The translations under genes were made by a program, and so were the position numbers. Under the pieces are notes generated by a model that ran no database searches, was not told the origin of the DNA, and was given only the letters and a program-made list of their open reading frames with translations. A stretch of DNA of 64,000 bases from Caulobacter sp. 602-2 (GTDB lineage: Bacteria; Pseudomonadota; Alphaproteobacteria; Caulobacterales; Caulobacteraceae): contig NZ_JAAKGT010000003.1 of assembly GCF_011043625.1 (NCBI RefSeq), positions 310,001-374,000 on the forward strand, in the 5' to 3' direction. Within the stretch, counting starts at the first letter, position 1. Every line of letters starts with the position of its first letter. Positions 57,238 through 63,816 of the stretch are shown piece by piece.

Positions 57238-57441
57238 GCACGCCCCGGCCGCCCCGCCTCCCGCACCATAGTTGTCGTTCGTCGAATGCTCGGACTTCGA
57301 CGGACGACAACGGCGCGACGGGCGCCGAATGCTGTTGCGGAAAAACTGTCATCAACCTGTGAAATAGACGCGGCGCTGAAAACAAACGGCGCCGTGGGCA
57401 ACAGTTCCCTGTGGCGTTTCCGTCTCGGGGGATGCCTTAAG

Positions 57442-59784
57442 ATGCTGCAACGGTCCGCCAGCGCGATCGCGATCGCCGCCTGCCTCATGATCGCCGCCCA
57501 GGCCAAGGCGGCCGACACCGCCGCGACGACCTCGACCGCGGCCGCCGAAGAGCTCGACGGCGTCGTCGTGGTCGGCAGCGGCCAGACCCGCTCGGTCTCG
57601 ACCCTCACGCCGGCCAGCCTCGAAGTGCTGCCCCCGGGCACGAGCGTGCAGAAGGCCCTGAACTTCCTGCCGGGCGTCAGCGCCCAGTCGATCGACGCCC
57701 TGGGCGTCAACGAGCAGTCGCTGTCGCTGCAGGTGCGCGGCTTCAACACCACCCACCTCGGCTACACGCTCGACGGCATGCCGCTCGGCGACGGCGCCTA
57801 CAACAACTACAACGGCCTGACGATCAGCCGCGCGCTGATCTCCGAGAACCTCGGCCGCGCGGACCTGGCCACCGGCATCGCCGGCCTGTCGATCCCCTCG
57901 ACCAGCAACCTCGGCGGCGCGCTGATCTACGTCTCGGCCGATCCCAAGAAGGAGATGGGTCTGTCGCTCAGCCAGAGCTACGGCAGCGAAGACACCTGGC
58001 GCACCTTTGCGCGCTTCGACACCGGCGAGCACAACGGCTGGTCGGCCTACCTGTCGGGCCACTACGCCCAGCAGGACCTGTTCGTGAACCAGCCGGTCTA
58101 CAACAAGTCGACCGGCAAGCAGTTCAACGGCAAGCTGACCTACAAGGGCGAGCGCGGCCAGGTGACGGCCTTCGCCGACATCTCGCGCACCAACCAGGCC
58201 GACGACGCCTACCTGTCGAAGGACATGCAAAGCCGCCTGGGTTGGGACTGGGGCGGCTACGCGCCCGACTGGAACGCCTACGTGTCGCGCGCCGCCTGTT
58301 CGGTGGCCTCGCTGGCCTCCAAGTGCGTGACCTCGACGGCGCCGGAAAAGCTCAGCGACGTCACCTTCACCAACGGCCAGATCCTGCGCAACGACGACCT
58401 GTTCTACATCGCGGCCGACTTCGACATCACCCCGACGCTGAAGGCCCACGGTCAGGTCTACAAGCACGAGAACAAGGGCGCCGGGAACAACTTCATCACC
58501 GGCCTGTCCAACCAGGGCACGGCGTCGACGGCCGACGACCTGCCGGTGCAGATCCGCGACACCCGCTACACCATCGACCGTGACGGCGTGATCGCGAGCC
58601 TGGCCTGGACCGCCGGCTTCAACCATCTGCAGGCCGGCCTCTGGCTGGAGCAGAACACCAGCAGCGCCGCCCGCTACATCTGGACCAACGTCACCGGCCC
58701 GTTCAGCCTGGCGCAGTACCTGAAGGGCCGTCCCGACACCGCCCAGTGGGTGCAGAAGACCGACTGGACCACCCAGCAGTTCTACGTGCAGGACACCATC
58801 ACCCTGCTGGACGACGCGCTGAGCATCGACTTCGGCTTCAAGAGCACCAACGCCAAGTCGACCGCCACGGCCCTGCCCGGTATCGCCAAGGCGCCGGCGG
58901 CCGCCTCGACCCAGTTCGCCAGCGGCTCGCTGAAGGCGTCCGACAGCTTCCTGCCGGAAGCCGGCGCGCGCTGGCGCATCGCGCCCGGCCACGAGGTGTT
59001 CGCCAGCTACGCCGAGAACATGGCCATGTTCCAGGGCGGCTTCAAACTGGGCCCGCAGTCGGTCAGCCAGGCCGTCTGGGACGCCCAGGGCAAGTACCTG
59101 GAGCCGGAGACCTCCAAGAGCTTCGACGCCGGCTACCGCTATGTGGGTGAAAGCCTGCAGGTCTCGATCTCGGCCTACGAGGTCGATTTCGACAACCGCC
59201 TGCTGCAGTACAACCCCTGCCCGACCAACCAGCAGCAGAACCCCGGCTGCGGCAACTCCTTCCACAACGCCGGCAGCGTCACCAGCAAGGGCGCCGAGCT
59301 TGGCGTTCTGTGGAAACCGCTGTCGTGGCTGAACTGGTACAACTCGGCCTCGTACAACAAGTCGACCTACGACGAGGACCTCAACTGGTGCTCGGGCGCG
59401 ACCTGCGTGATCAAGAAGACGGCCGGCAAGCAGCAGGTCGACACGCCCAAGGAGATGTTCGCCAGCGTGGTCAGCGTCAAGCGCGGACCGTTCTCCGCCT
59501 CGCTGCAGGGCAAGTACACCGGCCGTCGCTACTACACCTACACCAACGACCAGAGCTTCGGCGGCTACACCACCTTCGACCTGGGCCTGGCCTACCGGTT
59601 CGACCAGGTCGGCGTCATGAAGGGCGCCAAGGCCTCGCTGAACATCACCAACCTGACCGACAAGCGCTACGCGTCGAACTTCGACAGCAGCGTGTTCGCG
59701 CCCGACGACGCGACCGGCTCCATCCTGGTGTTCCATTCCTCGGCGCCGCGGCAGATCTTCGCCACCATCGGCTTCGACTTCTAA
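57442..59784 (+). CDS. TonB-dependent receptor
   Basis: 780 residues from the ATG at 57442 (MLQRSASAIAIAACLMIAAQ), a signal peptide ending at AKA. A TonB-box-like DGVVVVGSG precedes the plug domain, which has LNFLPGVSAQSIDALGVNEQ, LQVRGFNTT and TLDGMPLGDGAYNNYNGL. The rest is the 22-strand barrel, ending with Phe (ATIGFDF). FDAGYRYVGESLQVSISAYE and NITNLTDKRYAS are typical. Ligand unknown; next to gcd it may import a sugar or a PQQ-like cofactor, which is inference. Confidence 0.92.
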   Translation: MLQRSASAIAIAACLMIAAQAKAADTAATTSTAAAEELDGVVVVGSGQTRSVSTLTPASLEVLPPGTSVQKALNFLPGVSAQSIDALGVNEQSLSLQVRGFNTTHLGYTLDGMPLGDGAYNNYNGLTISRALISENLGRADLATGIAGLSIPSTSNLGGALIYVSADPKKEMGLSLSQSYGSEDTWRTFARFDTGEHNGWSAYLSGHYAQQDLFVNQPVYNKSTGKQFNGKLTYKGERGQVTAFADISRTNQADDAYLSKDMQSRLGWDWGGYAPDWNAYVSRAACSVASLASKCVTSTAPEKLSDVTFTNGQILRNDDLFYIAADFDITPTLKAHGQVYKHENKGAGNNFITGLSNQGTASTADDLPVQIRDTRYTIDRDGVIASLAWTAGFNHLQAGLWLEQNTSSAARYIWTNVTGPFSLAQYLKGRPDTAQWVQKTDWTTQQFYVQDTITLLDDALSIDFGFKSTNAKSTATALPGIAKAPAAASTQFASGSLKASDSFLPEAGARWRIAPGHEVFASYAENMAMFQGGFKLGPQSVSQAVWDAQGKYLEPETSKSFDAGYRYVGESLQVSISAYEVDFDNRLLQYNPCPTNQQQNPGCGNSFHNAGSVTSKGAELGVLWKPLSWLNWYNSASYNKSTYDEDLNWCSGATCVIKKTAGKQQVDTPKEMFASVVSVKRGPFSASLQGKYTGRRYYTYTNDQSFGGYTTFDLGLAYRFDQVGVMKGAKASLNITNLTDKRYASNFDSSVFAPDDATGSILVFHSSAPRQIFATIGFDF

Positions 59785-59916: not shown

Positions 59917-60492
59917 ATGACCGCCGATCTCGTTCCGCCCCGCTATCCAGACCTCCGTGACCGGACCATCGTGCTGGTCGGGTTGATGGGCGTTGGCAAG
60001 TCCAGCGTCGGGCGCCGCCTGGCCAACACCCTCGACCTGCCGTTCCGTGACGCCGACAACGAGGTCGAGCGCGCCGCCGGCCGCTCGATCCCCGAGATCT
60101 TCGCCGAGATGGGCGAGGAAGCTTTCCGCGACGGCGAGCGCCGGGTCATCGCCCGCCTGCTGGACGAGCCGCCGCACGTGCTGGCCACCGGCGGCGGCGC
60201 CTTCGTCAACGCCGAGACCCGCGCCCTGATCAAGGACAAGGCCATCGCCGTCTGGCTGAAGGCGGACCTGGAGCTTCTGGCCCGCCGCGTCGGCCGCAAG
60301 GACGGCCGGCCGCTGCTGAAGAACCGCGACCCCATGGACGTCCTGCGCGAGCAGGCCGTGACCCGCTACCCCGCCTACGGCGAGGCCCACCTGACCGTCG
60401 AGACCGGCGACACGCCCCACATGGTGGCCGTCGAGGCCGTCATCGCCGCCCTGCAGGGCCGCCTCGCCGCCGCGTCCGCTACCGGAGAGTAA
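59917..60492 (+). CDS. aroK: Shikimate kinase
   Basis: 191 residues. Phosphorylates shikimate in aromatic amino-acid synthesis. Walker [15 protein letters not shown] near residue 20, [14 protein letters not shown], and [12 protein letters not shown] with the shikimate-binding Gly triad, followed by the lid GRKDGRPLL. Length is usual. It lies 4 bp upstream of aroB, forming the common aroK-aroB pair. Confidence 0.96.
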
Positions 60493-60496
60493 GACC

Positions 60497-61612
60497 GTGA
60501 TCAGCACCGTTCCCGTGGGCCTGGGCGATCGCGCCTACGACGTCGTCATCGGCACGGGCCTGATCGACAAGGCCGGCGAGCACGTCCTGCCGTTCCTGGC
60601 CAAGCGCAAGCGCTGCGCCGTGGTCACCGACGCCAATGTCGGCGAGCACCATGTCGAGCGCCTGTCGGTGTCGCTGGAGAAGGCCGGCGCCTCGGTCGAC
60701 GTCATCGTGCTGCCGCCGGGCGAGGAGACCAAGAGCTTCGAGGGCCTGGCGCACCTGTCGGACCAGTTGCTGGCGCTGGGCCTGGAGCGCGGCGACATGA
60801 TCGTGGCCTTCGGCGGCGGCGTGATCGGCGACCTCGCCGGCTTCGCCGCGGCGATCTACAAGCGCGGCGTCGACTTCATCCAGATCCCGACCTCGCTGCT
60901 GGCCCAGGTCGACAGCTCGGTCGGCGGCAAGACCGCCATCGACACCCCGCGCGGCAAGAACCTGATCGGCGCCTTCCATCAGCCGCGCCTCGTCCTGGCC
61001 GACCTCGACGTGCTGGCCACCCTGCCCGCCCGCGAGCTGGCCTGCGGCTATGCCGAGGTCATCAAGTACGGGCTGCTGGGCGACTTCGACTTCTTCGAAT
61101 GGCTGGAAAAGAACGTCCACGCCGTGCTCGAGCGCGACACCCAGGCCCTGGTCCGCGCCGTCGGCCGCAGCGTCGAGATGAAGGCCGAGATCGTCGCCGA
61201 GGACGAGAAGGAGGCCGGCCGCCGCGCGCTGCTGAACCTCGGCCACACCTTCGGCCACGCCATCGAGGCCGAGATGGGTTTCGGCGACGCGCTCAAGCAC
61301 GGCGAGGCCGTCGGCGTGGGCATGGCCCAGGCCTTCCGCTTCTCGGCCGCCCAGGGGCTGTGCCCCGCGCAGGACGCCGTCCGTGCCGTGGCCGCGATCA
61401 AGGCCGCCGGCCTGCCGACCACCCTGGCCGAGGTGCGGCCCGAGCCGTTCGACGCCGACGCCCTGATCGCCCACATGGGCCAGGACAAGAAGGCCGAGGG
61501 CGGCGCCCTGACCTTCGTGCTGGTGCGCGCCATCGGCGACGCGTTCGTCGCCAAGGGCGTCGATCCGGCCCCGCTTCGCGCCTTCCTGGTGAGCGAAGGC
61601 GCCGCGGGCTGA
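60497..61612 (+). CDS. aroB: 3-dehydroquinate synthase
   Basis: 371 residues, start GTG 60497, GGAGAG 7 nt before it. Converts DAHP to 3-dehydroquinate with NAD and a divalent metal. Visible: NAD-binding [14 protein letters not shown] near residue 107, [18 protein letters not shown], metal ligands in [21 protein letters not shown] and [11 protein letters not shown]. Follows aroK in the same operon. Confidence 0.97.
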
Positions 61613-61687: not shown

Positions 61688-61712
61688 GGAACCGCCGTGG
61701 TTGCGGCGCGTT
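61688..61712 (+). promoter_or_regulatory. EcfG/SigT-type general stress promoter
   Basis: GGAAC at 61688-61692, 16-bp spacer, then CGTT at 61709-61712. This matches the alphaproteobacterial EcfG (Caulobacter SigT) consensus GGAAC-N16/17-CGTT exactly. It lies 50 bp before the HWE kinase start, so transcription would begin about 61720. Confidence 0.8.
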
Positions 61713-61761
61713 CAAGTCGACGCGCCGGAGTGTCGGCGATGGGGTCTAGGGGGGAGCCTAG

Positions 61762-63384
61762 GTGACCGTTTTGGAGGCCGACGCGGTGTCAGCGACGGAG
61801 GAGATTGCCGATCTCCGCCGACGGCTGGCCGAAGCGCAGGCTGCTCACACCGACGAGGTGCGCCGGAACCAGGCGTTCAGCCGCATCGCCGCGGCCATCG
61901 GCGCGCACCAGAGCCTGGGCGAGACCGTCCAGGCGGTGATCGACGGCGGCGTCGAGCTGATCGGCGCCCAGTTCGGAGCCTTCTTCTACAACGTCGTCGA
62001 CAAGGCCGGAGAGAGCTACATGCTCTACGGCCTGGCCGGGGCGCCGCCCGAGGCGTTCGCCGACTTTCCGATGCCGCGCAAGACCGCGATCTTCGCCCCC
62101 ACCTTCGACGGCGTGGGCGTGGTGCGTTCCGACGACATCCTGGCCGATCCCCGCTACGGCCTCAGCGGCCCCTACAAGGGCATGCCCGAGGGCCACCTGC
62201 CGGTGCGCAGCTATCTGGCCGCGCCGGTCAAGACCGTCGACGGCCTGGTGCTGGGCGGCCTGTTCTTCGGCCATCGCGAGCCGGGCCGCTTCGACGCGCG
62301 GGCCGAGACCGTGATCGTGGGCCTGGCCGCCCAGGCCGCCGTCGCCATCGAATGGAGCCGCGCCGGCGAGGCCGGCGACCGCGAGCTCACCGAGCGCCGC
62401 CGCACCGAGGAGCGCCTGAAGTTCGCCCTCGATTCCGGCCGCCTGGGCTCCTGGGAACTCGACGTCGAGACCCGCGCCTACGACGCCTCCGACATCTGCA
62501 AGTCGAACTACGGCCGCACCTCCGACGAGACCTTCGGCTTCGACGACCTGGTCGCCACCATCCACGCCAGCGACCGCGAGCGGATGCTGGCGGCGATGGA
62601 CGAGGCGATCCGCACCGGGGGCGACTACGACATCGAGTACCGCGTGGTGATCCCCAGCGGCGAGACGCGCTGGGTGCACGCCCGCGGCCGCGCCGCCGTG
62701 CGCGACGAGACGCCGGTGATCGGCGGCGGCGTGCGGCGCATGGCCGGGGTGTCGCTGGACATCACCGAGCGCAAGCGCGCCGAGGAGCGCCAGCGCCTTC
62801 TGCTCAACGAACTGAACCACCGCGTGAAGAACACCCTGGTCACCGTCCAGTCGATGGCCGCCCAGACCCTGCGCGCCGCCGACGACCTGCCTGCCTTCCG
62901 CGAGGCCTTCGAGGCCCGGCTGATCGCCCTGTCGCAGACCCACAACCTGCTGACCGAACAGAACTGGGAAAGCGCCAGCCTGCGCGAGATCGTCGACGCC
63001 GAGCTGGAGGCCTTCGCCGGCCGCGAGCGCCTGGATTTCGACTACGCCCGCGACCTGCGGCTCAATCCCAAGGCCACCGTGGCCATCGGCATGGCCGTGC
63101 ACGAGCTGGCCACCAACGCCGCCAAGTACGGCGCGCTGTCGACGCCGGAAGGCCGGGTCACCGTGGCCTGGGCCATCGAGCCGCCGGAAGCCCCCGCCCG
63201 TCTCGTCCTGCGCTGGACCGAGCGCGGCGGCCCCGCCGTCACCACGCCGAGCCGTCGCGGCTTCGGCGCCCGCCTTCTGGAGAAGGGCCTCGCCGGCGAG
63301 TTGTCCGGCGTGGTCCGTCTCGCCTATGATCAATCAGGCTTGGGCTGCGCCATGACGCTGCCCCTCGCCGCCCTGGAGCCGTGA
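61762..63384 (+). CDS. GAF-PAS HWE-family sensor histidine kinase
   Basis: 540 residues, start GTG 61762 with GGGGGGAG upstream. A GAF domain at about 40-195 (GAHQSLGETVQAVIDGGVEL, APVKTVDGLVLGGLFFGHRE), a PAS domain at ~215-335 (FALDSGRLGSWELDV, then DITERKRAEERQ), and an HWE kinase with H353 in LNELNHRVKNTL, the N box VHELATNAAKYGALS and RRGFGARLLEKGL. Soluble. The next gene encodes a receiver protein with 4-nt overlap. The EcfG-type promoter upstream places it under the general stress regulon. The signal bound by GAF and PAS is not known. Confidence 0.9.
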   Translation: MTVLEADAVSATEEIADLRRRLAEAQAAHTDEVRRNQAFSRIAAAIGAHQSLGETVQAVIDGGVELIGAQFGAFFYNVVDKAGESYMLYGLAGAPPEAFADFPMPRKTAIFAPTFDGVGVVRSDDILADPRYGLSGPYKGMPEGHLPVRSYLAAPVKTVDGLVLGGLFFGHREPGRFDARAETVIVGLAAQAAVAIEWSRAGEAGDRELTERRRTEERLKFALDSGRLGSWELDVETRAYDASDICKSNYGRTSDETFGFDDLVATIHASDRERMLAAMDEAIRTGGDYDIEYRVVIPSGETRWVHARGRAAVRDETPVIGGGVRRMAGVSLDITERKRAEERQRLLLNELNHRVKNTLVTVQSMAAQTLRAADDLPAFREAFEARLIALSQTHNLLTEQNWESASLREIVDAELEAFAGRERLDFDYARDLRLNPKATVAIGMAVHELATNAAKYGALSTPEGRVTVAWAIEPPEAPARLVLRWTERGGPAVTTPSRRGFGARLLEKGLAGELSGVVRLAYDQSGLGCAMTLPLAALEP

Positions 63385-63758
63385 AACAGATGAAGACCCT
63401 CGCCGCCCTGAAGGTACTGGTGGTCGAAGACGAAGCCCTCGTCTCGATGCTGGTCGAGGACATGCTCGGCGATCTCGGCTGCGAGGTCGTGGGTCCGGCC
63501 GCCGAGATCGAGGAGGCCCTGCGCCTGGCCGGCTCGGCCGAGATCGACGCGGCCCTGCTCGACGTCAACCTGGGCGGACGTCCGATCTTCCCGGTCGCCG
63601 ACGCCCTGAAGGCGCGCGGCGTGCCCTTCGCCTTCGCCAGCGGCTACGGCGAGGCGGGCCTGACCGAACCGCACAAGGGCTCGCCGGTGCTGCAGAAGCC
63701 GTTCCGCGAAGCCGACCTGCGCCGGGTGCTCGAAGGCCTCGCCGCCCAGGTCGTCTGA
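63381..63758 (+). CDS. Single-domain response regulator
   Basis: 125 residues, start GTG 63381, overlapping the kinase stop by 4 nt (GTGA). Receiver domain only: acidic pocket E16 and D17 (VVEDEALV), phosphoacceptor D61 (ALLDVNLGG), and K106 in LQKPFRE. The FAFASGYGE segment is typical of receivers paired with HWE kinases, such as LovR in Caulobacter. It likely relays or drains phosphate from the kinase upstream, being translationally coupled. Confidence 0.93.
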   Translation: MKQMKTLAALKVLVVEDEALVSMLVEDMLGDLGCEVVGPAAEIEEALRLAGSAEIDAALLDVNLGGRPIFPVADALKARGVPFAFASGYGEAGLTEPHKGSPVLQKPFREADLRRVLEGLAAQVV

Positions 63759-63785: not shown

Positions 63786-63816
63786 AACGGGCGGCCTTGC
63801 GGCGCGCCCGTTTTTT
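63786..63816 (+). terminator. Terminator after the response regulator gene
   Basis: Stem AACGGGC...GCCCGTT (63786-63792, 63806-63812) with an inner GCC-TTGC-GGC hairpin, followed by a T run (TTTTTT). 27 bp past the stop. Confidence 0.85.

Follow-up and report, generated by a model that had tools for sequence, protein, structure and literature searches.

Does the sensor kinase and single-domain receiver pair located near the end of the 64,000-nucleotide stretch of Caulobacter DNA analyzed here (the window) take part in the general stress response, and if so, does it damp this response or amplify it? The first-pass annotation likened the pair to LovK-LovR of Caulobacter crescentus. The data presented below lead to a different answer: we consider it probable (roughly 0.8) that the locus is a two-gene unit in which an HWE sensor kinase and the hub receiver MrrA stand behind a SigT-type promoter and exert positive feedback on stress signalling. 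What is new is this predicted kinase-hub unit, of which the model species would have lost both the kinase and the promoter. In a limited search of the open literature, no account of a kinase gene beside mrrA was found.

The unit, all the features of which lie on the plus strand, opens with the -35 element GGAAC (61688..61692), followed 16 bases further on by the -10 element CGTT (61709..61712). Both boxes are exact matches, and the whole element (61688-61712) lies 74 nt ahead of the kinase start codon. The spacing and the distance agree with the definition of EcfG-type promoters given in the part of PMC5869019 consulted, namely GGAAC and CGTT with 15-17 bases between them, at most 200 nt upstream. 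By itself the motif carries no meaning, since exact matches occur in the genome at the level of the control (57, vs 62 for the reversed motif; spacing 16-17); in the window, 2 matches were found vs 1.54 expected (spacing 15-18). These counts suit the view that the promoter match is due to chance and that the pair is unrelated to SigT, and the genome-wide figures alone could not exclude it. Conservation led us to reject this view, which we regard as extremely improbable: in 38 of the 39 other Caulobacter kinase loci (L155-L193), both boxes are present exactly at the start of the unit, with a spacing of 16 in 36 of them and 17 in two. The sole miss, L192, belongs to a genome that is 61% complete, and its reading frame contains a stop. 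The motif also persists at mrrA loci that have no kinase: among 25 hand-picked loci of this kind (16 from Caulobacter, seven from the Phenylobacterium genus g7 and two from genus g22), 12 carry it exactly within 250 bp of mrrA (8/16, 4/7, and 0/2, respectively), whereas chance would give about 0.0014 per locus, or about 0.03 over the 25. The promoter therefore goes with mrrA.

Further comparisons were made with the upstream regions of relatives. The reversed control motif gave one match in the 45 upstream regions scanned. The exact motif was present in all nine named or isolate Caulobacter records and both Phenylobacterium records having upstream sequence, a set which partly overlaps the genomes of the previous count; L074, which lies at a contig edge, was not part of the promoter test. 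The motif can be regarded as real because it is kept in 38 of the 39 orthologous loci around a weakly conserved spacer: among 32 distinct cores with a spacing of 16 (31 from Caulobacter and one from Phenylobacterium, the boxes being constant by selection), positions 7-19 do not exceed 0.78 bits. Among the bases left free by the pattern used for the search, position 6 is C in 31/32 and position 21 is G in 28/32 of these cores. The motif precedes five of the six distinct Phenylobacterium kinase loci (L012, identical to L217, and L013, L214, L215, and L216); the exact form is absent from the sixth, L220. It is also retained ahead of the shorter reading frames of three Caulobacter kinases lacking the GAF domain (L190, L191, and L193). 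Two Microvirga kinases (47-51% identity) have neither the motif nor the receiver. Two genes of the own genome served as positive controls: the exact motif is found upstream of lovK, 74 nt from its first start codon, and 78-103 nt ahead of phyR. The exact EcfG-type promoter proposed in the first-pass annotation was thus confirmed as a conserved element, and its dependence on SigT is predicted from these patterns.

The gene that follows (61762..63384) starts with GTG and encodes a histidine kinase of 540 amino acids. The GAF-PAS-HWE architecture initially proposed was recovered with Pfam: GAF_2 at residues 50-197 (61909..62352), PAS_3 at residues 242-317 (62485..62712), and HWE_HK, the phosphoacceptor domain, at residues 350-423 (62809..63030). 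The score obtained with HWE_HK is 94.8 bits vs 26.8 with HisKA_2. The defining marks of HWE kinases are an HRxxN H-box, a histidine in the N-box, and a WxE motif. The window kinase shows all three, in the form of HRVKN with His353 (positioned in the alignment of relatives), of HELATNAAKYGALS with its His, starting at residue 447, and of WTE within LRWTERGG, starting at residue 483; the latter two ATPase-domain motifs span 63100..63231. The own genome contains 18 HWE/HisKA_2 matches, 14 of which, including the window kinase, score higher with HWE_HK, and four of which score far higher with HisKA_2. PhyR is encoded as well, together with a NepR domain, an ECF sigma factor, and a HisKA_2 kinase resembling PhyK. 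Two of the four HisKA_2-type kinases were named: the one resembling PhyK was assigned as PhyK by its position beside the ECF sigma factor and NepR, and another was assigned as LovK on the basis of its similarity to blue-light kinase models, at scores below their cut-offs, and of the receiver located downstream. In a tree of 32 kinase domains, which includes several long branches, the HWE and HisKA_2 types were separated with a support of 99, the window kinase falling on the HWE side. This split agrees with the placing of LovK and PhyK in the HisKA2 family in the portion of PMC5964349 consulted. Membership of the LovK/PhyK clade was ruled out on these grounds, since its members are HisKA_2 kinases and the window kinase is an HWE kinase; a position outside this clade had been named beforehand as the outcome that would speak against the LovK analogy.

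The receiver gene (63390..63758) encodes 122 residues when read from the ATG at 63390, which is the start common to most relatives and lies 5 nt past the kinase stop. The mechanically defined reading frame starts at GTG 63381, which overlaps the kinase stop and is confined to the close clade of the window; this start was dropped in favor of the conserved ATG. The kinase-receiver pair described in the first-pass annotation therefore stands, but the overlap between the two genes, which requires the GTG, does not. Response_reg was detected at 35.7 bits (residues 12-115 of the 125 amino acids of the longer frame), and no other Pfam family was found in the receiver at E ≤ 0.001, hence no output domain. 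The predicted phosphoacceptor is Asp58 (codon 63561..63563), and the motif PFAFASGY (63624..63647, counted by hand) is FATGUY-like, with Ser replacing Thr. The unit ends with a terminator-like sequence read by eye, ACGGGCG...CGCCCGT followed by a T run (63787..63816). The genes aroK (59917-60492; Pfam SKI) and aroB (60497-61612; DHQ_synthase) lie upstream on the same strand (59917..61612) and outside the unit, and are found near mrrA in many loci. In many relatives, corC is located between aroB and the kinase; it is missing there in the window. The aroK-aroB-kinase-receiver block is flanked by TonB-receptor-like genes at 57286-59784 and from about 63901 onward (minus strand; L134:4402-7557; by eye).

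The receiver is much more widely distributed than the kinase. It was detected at E ≤ 1e-35 in 70 of 75 Caulobacter genomes, including all 60 of good quality; in a family-wide sample of 299 genomes, a search at E ≤ 1e-32 recovered it from 209, which represent 12 of 22 genera. Its ortholog in the C. crescentus clade is 91-92% identical. Two genomes, G069 and G045, represent this clade: the PhyR of G069 is identical over 266 residues to PDB 3n0r, which we take to be C. crescentus PhyR, and that of G045 is 99% identical. In a one-directional search with a 112-residue stretch of SdrG from Sphingomonas melonis, the window receiver's ortholog ranked first in G069 and G045, at 70.4 and 72.2 bits, ahead of the next matches at 60.9 and 62.6 bits; in the own genome, SdrG matched a second receiver nearly as well (70.5 vs 69.9 bits). 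In G045, the distances among mrrA, phyR, and another kinase-receiver pair (533, 997, and 2416 kb) compare with 493, 980, and 2544 kb derived from the locus numbers CC3015 (MrrA), CC3477, and CC0629, on the assumption that CC3477 is the phyR locus number and with the CB15 gene count and size that we assume; we infer that the other pair is CC0629/CC0630. Numbered from the conserved ATG, the window receiver and those of G069 and G045 have Asp at both 53 and 58, whereas Ala53 and Asn58 are found in the only other single-domain FATGUY-like candidate in G069 and G045, the gene of which adjoins that of an HWE kinase. According to the erratum on MrrA, Asp58 is the phosphorylated residue, primers for Asp53 having been listed (PMC6123447). 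SdrG and MrrA are reported to be best bidirectional hits, and the MrrA-type motif is given as PFXFATG(G/Y) (PMC5964349, in part); PFAFASGY differs from it by one conservative change (S for T), which speaks against identifying the receiver with MrrA, as does the near tie in the own genome, although the C. crescentus ortholog is also FASGY. The FxSGY of CckA is treated as FATGUY in the part of PMC9981736 consulted.

Because SdrG finds this receiver first in G069 and G045, and because of the two aspartates and the genomic distances, we conclude from sequence comparison that the window receiver is the MrrA ortholog, sharing with MrrA (CC3015) 91% identity (to the G069 gene), Asp53 and Asp58, and FASGY. 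It resembles SdrG, a FATGUY receiver to which HWE/HisKA2 kinases deliver phosphate during the stress response (PMC5964349 and PMC6599016, as far as consulted), in its FATGUY-like motif, but the identity between the two is 44% over 103 residues. In the receiver tree, the window receiver groups with the mrrA-locus receivers, apart from LovR and the PhyR receiver (support 99). The analogy with LovK-LovR consequently fails, because the kinase is HWE and not HisKA_2 and the receiver separates from LovR. The likeness is restricted to the layout, a kinase and a single receiver behind an EcfG-type promoter, with the motif at the same distance in the own-genome copy; LovK-LovR differs in having a blue-light/PAS-type sensor, a HisKA_2 kinase, and a LovR-type receiver, where the window kinase has GAF_2, PAS_3, and HWE_HK. 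The link with the stress response is retained on another footing, namely the orthology with MrrA and not LovK-like descent.

That the pair might nevertheless act as a LovK-LovR-like negative adjuster, a SigT-induced phosphate sink draining the stress pathway, is improbable in our estimation. The identical layout, in which an exact motif stands at the same 74-nt distance from the first start codon of both units, would fit such a role, as would the reports that LovK-LovR serves as a sink for MrrA and that the HWE kinase CC2554 dephosphorylates MrrA on ATP depletion (PMC5964349, in part). The family of the kinase and the company of the receiver in the tree, away from LovR, argue against it, and MrrA is described as a positive factor in C. 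crescentus in the same partial source.

The closest solved relative of the receiver is PDB 2lpm, presumably Sma0114 of Sinorhizobium meliloti (109.2 bits vs 72.6 for SdrG). In keeping with this similarity, the pair might have a separate output like that of Sma0113-Sma0114, with little effect on SigT. Sma0113-Sma0114 also combines an HWE kinase with a FATGUY receiver, and differs in its reported output, succinate-mediated catabolite repression; Sma0114 is accordingly credited with a catabolic role in the portion of PMC5964349 consulted. Such an output is highly improbable here: the EcfG-type promoter is conserved, and the receiver has MrrA as its ortholog in the C. crescentus clade, where SigT-dependent expression requires MrrA (PMC5964349, in part). 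Moreover, the catabolic and the stress role may not be distinct, since both Sma0114 and SdrG fall within the MrrA profile in the part of PMC9981736 consulted.

The favored reading, a SigT-driven kinase-hub unit, would work as follows. A signal sensed by the GAF/PAS module would cause the kinase to autophosphorylate on His353 and to phosphorylate MrrA on Asp58; MrrA~P would hand the phosphate through PhyK to PhyR, which would remove NepR and free SigT. SigT would then transcribe more kinase and more MrrA from what is predicted to be a single transcript, giving positive feedback at the hub. This feedback would operate beside the LovK-LovR drain, which has its own SigT-type promoter and acts with the opposite sign. 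In C. crescentus, HWE, HisKA2, and other kinases supply MrrA with phosphate, which then goes to PhyK and LovK; among the kinases listed with MrrA in the portion of PMC5964349 consulted, none adjoins mrrA by locus number. Since FATGUY receivers are promiscuous (same source), the main donor to MrrA could be a kinase other than its neighbor. A comparable association of a stress-activating kinase with a single-domain receiver is that of PakB and PkrB in Sphingomonas melonis, PkrB being among the genes regulated under a mix of stresses (PMC6599016, in part).

Of the 75 Caulobacter genomes, 40 (counting the own one) contain a match to the kinase at E ≤ 1e-90. Caulobacter endophyticus, C. radicis, and C. 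zeae are examples of species with the full unit. At E ≤ 1e-110, the kinase is found in 42 of the 299 sampled family genomes, in two genera; the latter threshold misses some kinases, since the kinase locus L220 comes from a genome outside the 42. Among the 31 Caulobacter genomes with the receiver and no kinase match, 16 were examined (L200-L211 and L234-L237). In the first 12, aroB is followed directly by the receiver in four (L205, L208, L209, and L211) and by corC and then the receiver in five (L203, L204, L206, L207, and L210). In the remaining three (L200, L201, and L202, from G045, G069, and G023), corC precedes mrrA, and the 4.5-5.3 kb upstream revealed no aroB; the aroB linkage therefore does not reach C. 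crescentus. What is left of the kinase in these three genomes, directly before mrrA, is its C-terminal end (58, 42, and 41 amino acids, respectively), which by its sequence is to be read as the scar of a deletion. The exact motif is absent from 13 of the 25 kinase-less loci, namely those of both C. crescentus-clade genomes and 11 others.

A DNA tree of 55 mrrA genes (39 with and 16 without the kinase) calls for at least seven changes in the presence of the kinase, four of which are forced by well-supported branches. In this tree, G069 and G045 nest next to the kinase-bearing G072 and G070. Where G072 has GGAACCGAGCGCCAATCCGTGCGTT, G069 has GCAACCGAGCGCCGGGCGGTGCGCC at the corresponding place (aligned by eye), a decay of the promoter that accompanied the loss of the kinase. 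The mrrA loci of G069 and G045 differ from that of the window in carrying a scar of 42-58 codons instead of a kinase gene and in the decay of the EcfG motif. A recent insertion of the kinase in the window's clade was ruled out: Phenylobacterium has the kinase, each of the two main branches of the midpoint-rooted mrrA tree includes carriers, and three genomes without it retain scars. The kinase is an old gene, repeatedly lost from between the promoter and the hub, and C. crescentus seems to have deleted it and lost the promoter as well.

Two further observations concern this distribution. L002, recorded as Caulobacter vibrioides strain T5M6, has a full-length kinase that is 94% identical to that of the window, unlike G069 and G045; its species label is probably wrong. 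In genus g3 (L226-L231, outside the count of 25 loci), six relatives of the receiver (55-62%) mostly follow a different HWE kinase, 48-52% identical in the kinase domain. No such kinase was found before the receiver in L229, and no aroB near any of the six loci or motif within 250 bp of these receivers.

The nature of the input was approached through the GAF domain, the AlphaFold2 model of which has a mean pLDDT of 85.7. His145 is invariant, occurring in 120 of 120 relatives with a GAF domain; three of the 123 loci scanned have none. Among solved sequences, the domain is best matched by DosT and DosS of Mycobacterium tuberculosis, in their heme GAF domains (2.7e-6 at best), and His145 aligns with DosS His149 (numbering counted by hand in the alignment), which is the proximal heme ligand according to the section of PMC4082495 consulted. 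The model fits the DosS and DosT folds with a Z of about 17-18 (17.9). The identity is about 24%, however, and GAF domains of ptsP fit the model equally well (Z 18.3-18.8), leaving the domain as a candidate heme sensor. The surrounding module (61882-62385), which contains GMPxGHLPVxSYL, is a strongly conserved and widely shuffled sensor: copies about 52-65% identical occur in kinases of alphaproteobacterial, gammaproteobacterial, cyanobacterial, and other records.

We advance with considerable doubt a broader proposal: in about half of the Caulobacter species, MrrA would be co-expressed with a SigT-driven kinase, nearly always bearing a heme-type gas/redox GAF domain, forming a self-amplifying input for oxygen, NO, or redox state, and C. 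crescentus would be secondarily reduced, having lost the kinase, the promoter, and the feedback. Even without this extension, the comparisons suggest that a partner kinase of MrrA was deleted in the model species, and much of the genus may depart from the textbook wiring of the C. crescentus stress response. If the main reading is true, SigT controls the hub, and positive feedback acts on it, across much of the genus but not in C. crescentus; from this follows a prediction on switching or memory in the general stress response that can be put to the test. The loci also form a graded series of natural losses, running from the full kinase through a GAF-less kinase and a scar to no kinase at all, in which one can ask how a receiver served by its own kinase turns into a promiscuous hub.

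Other HWE kinases of the own genome show related arrangements. Two further HWE kinase and single-receiver pairs, L130 (C12:421200) and L135 (C22:291506), have receivers with FATGYG and FVTGYG, respectively, and no exact EcfG motif within the 6 kb stretches around them. In another HWE kinase (C12:514917), the motif falls within the open frame itself, upstream of the first start. At L131 (C4:43177), an HWE kinase with no receiver downstream has the exact motif, with a spacing of 17, near its start, and is possibly another SigT-regulated input.
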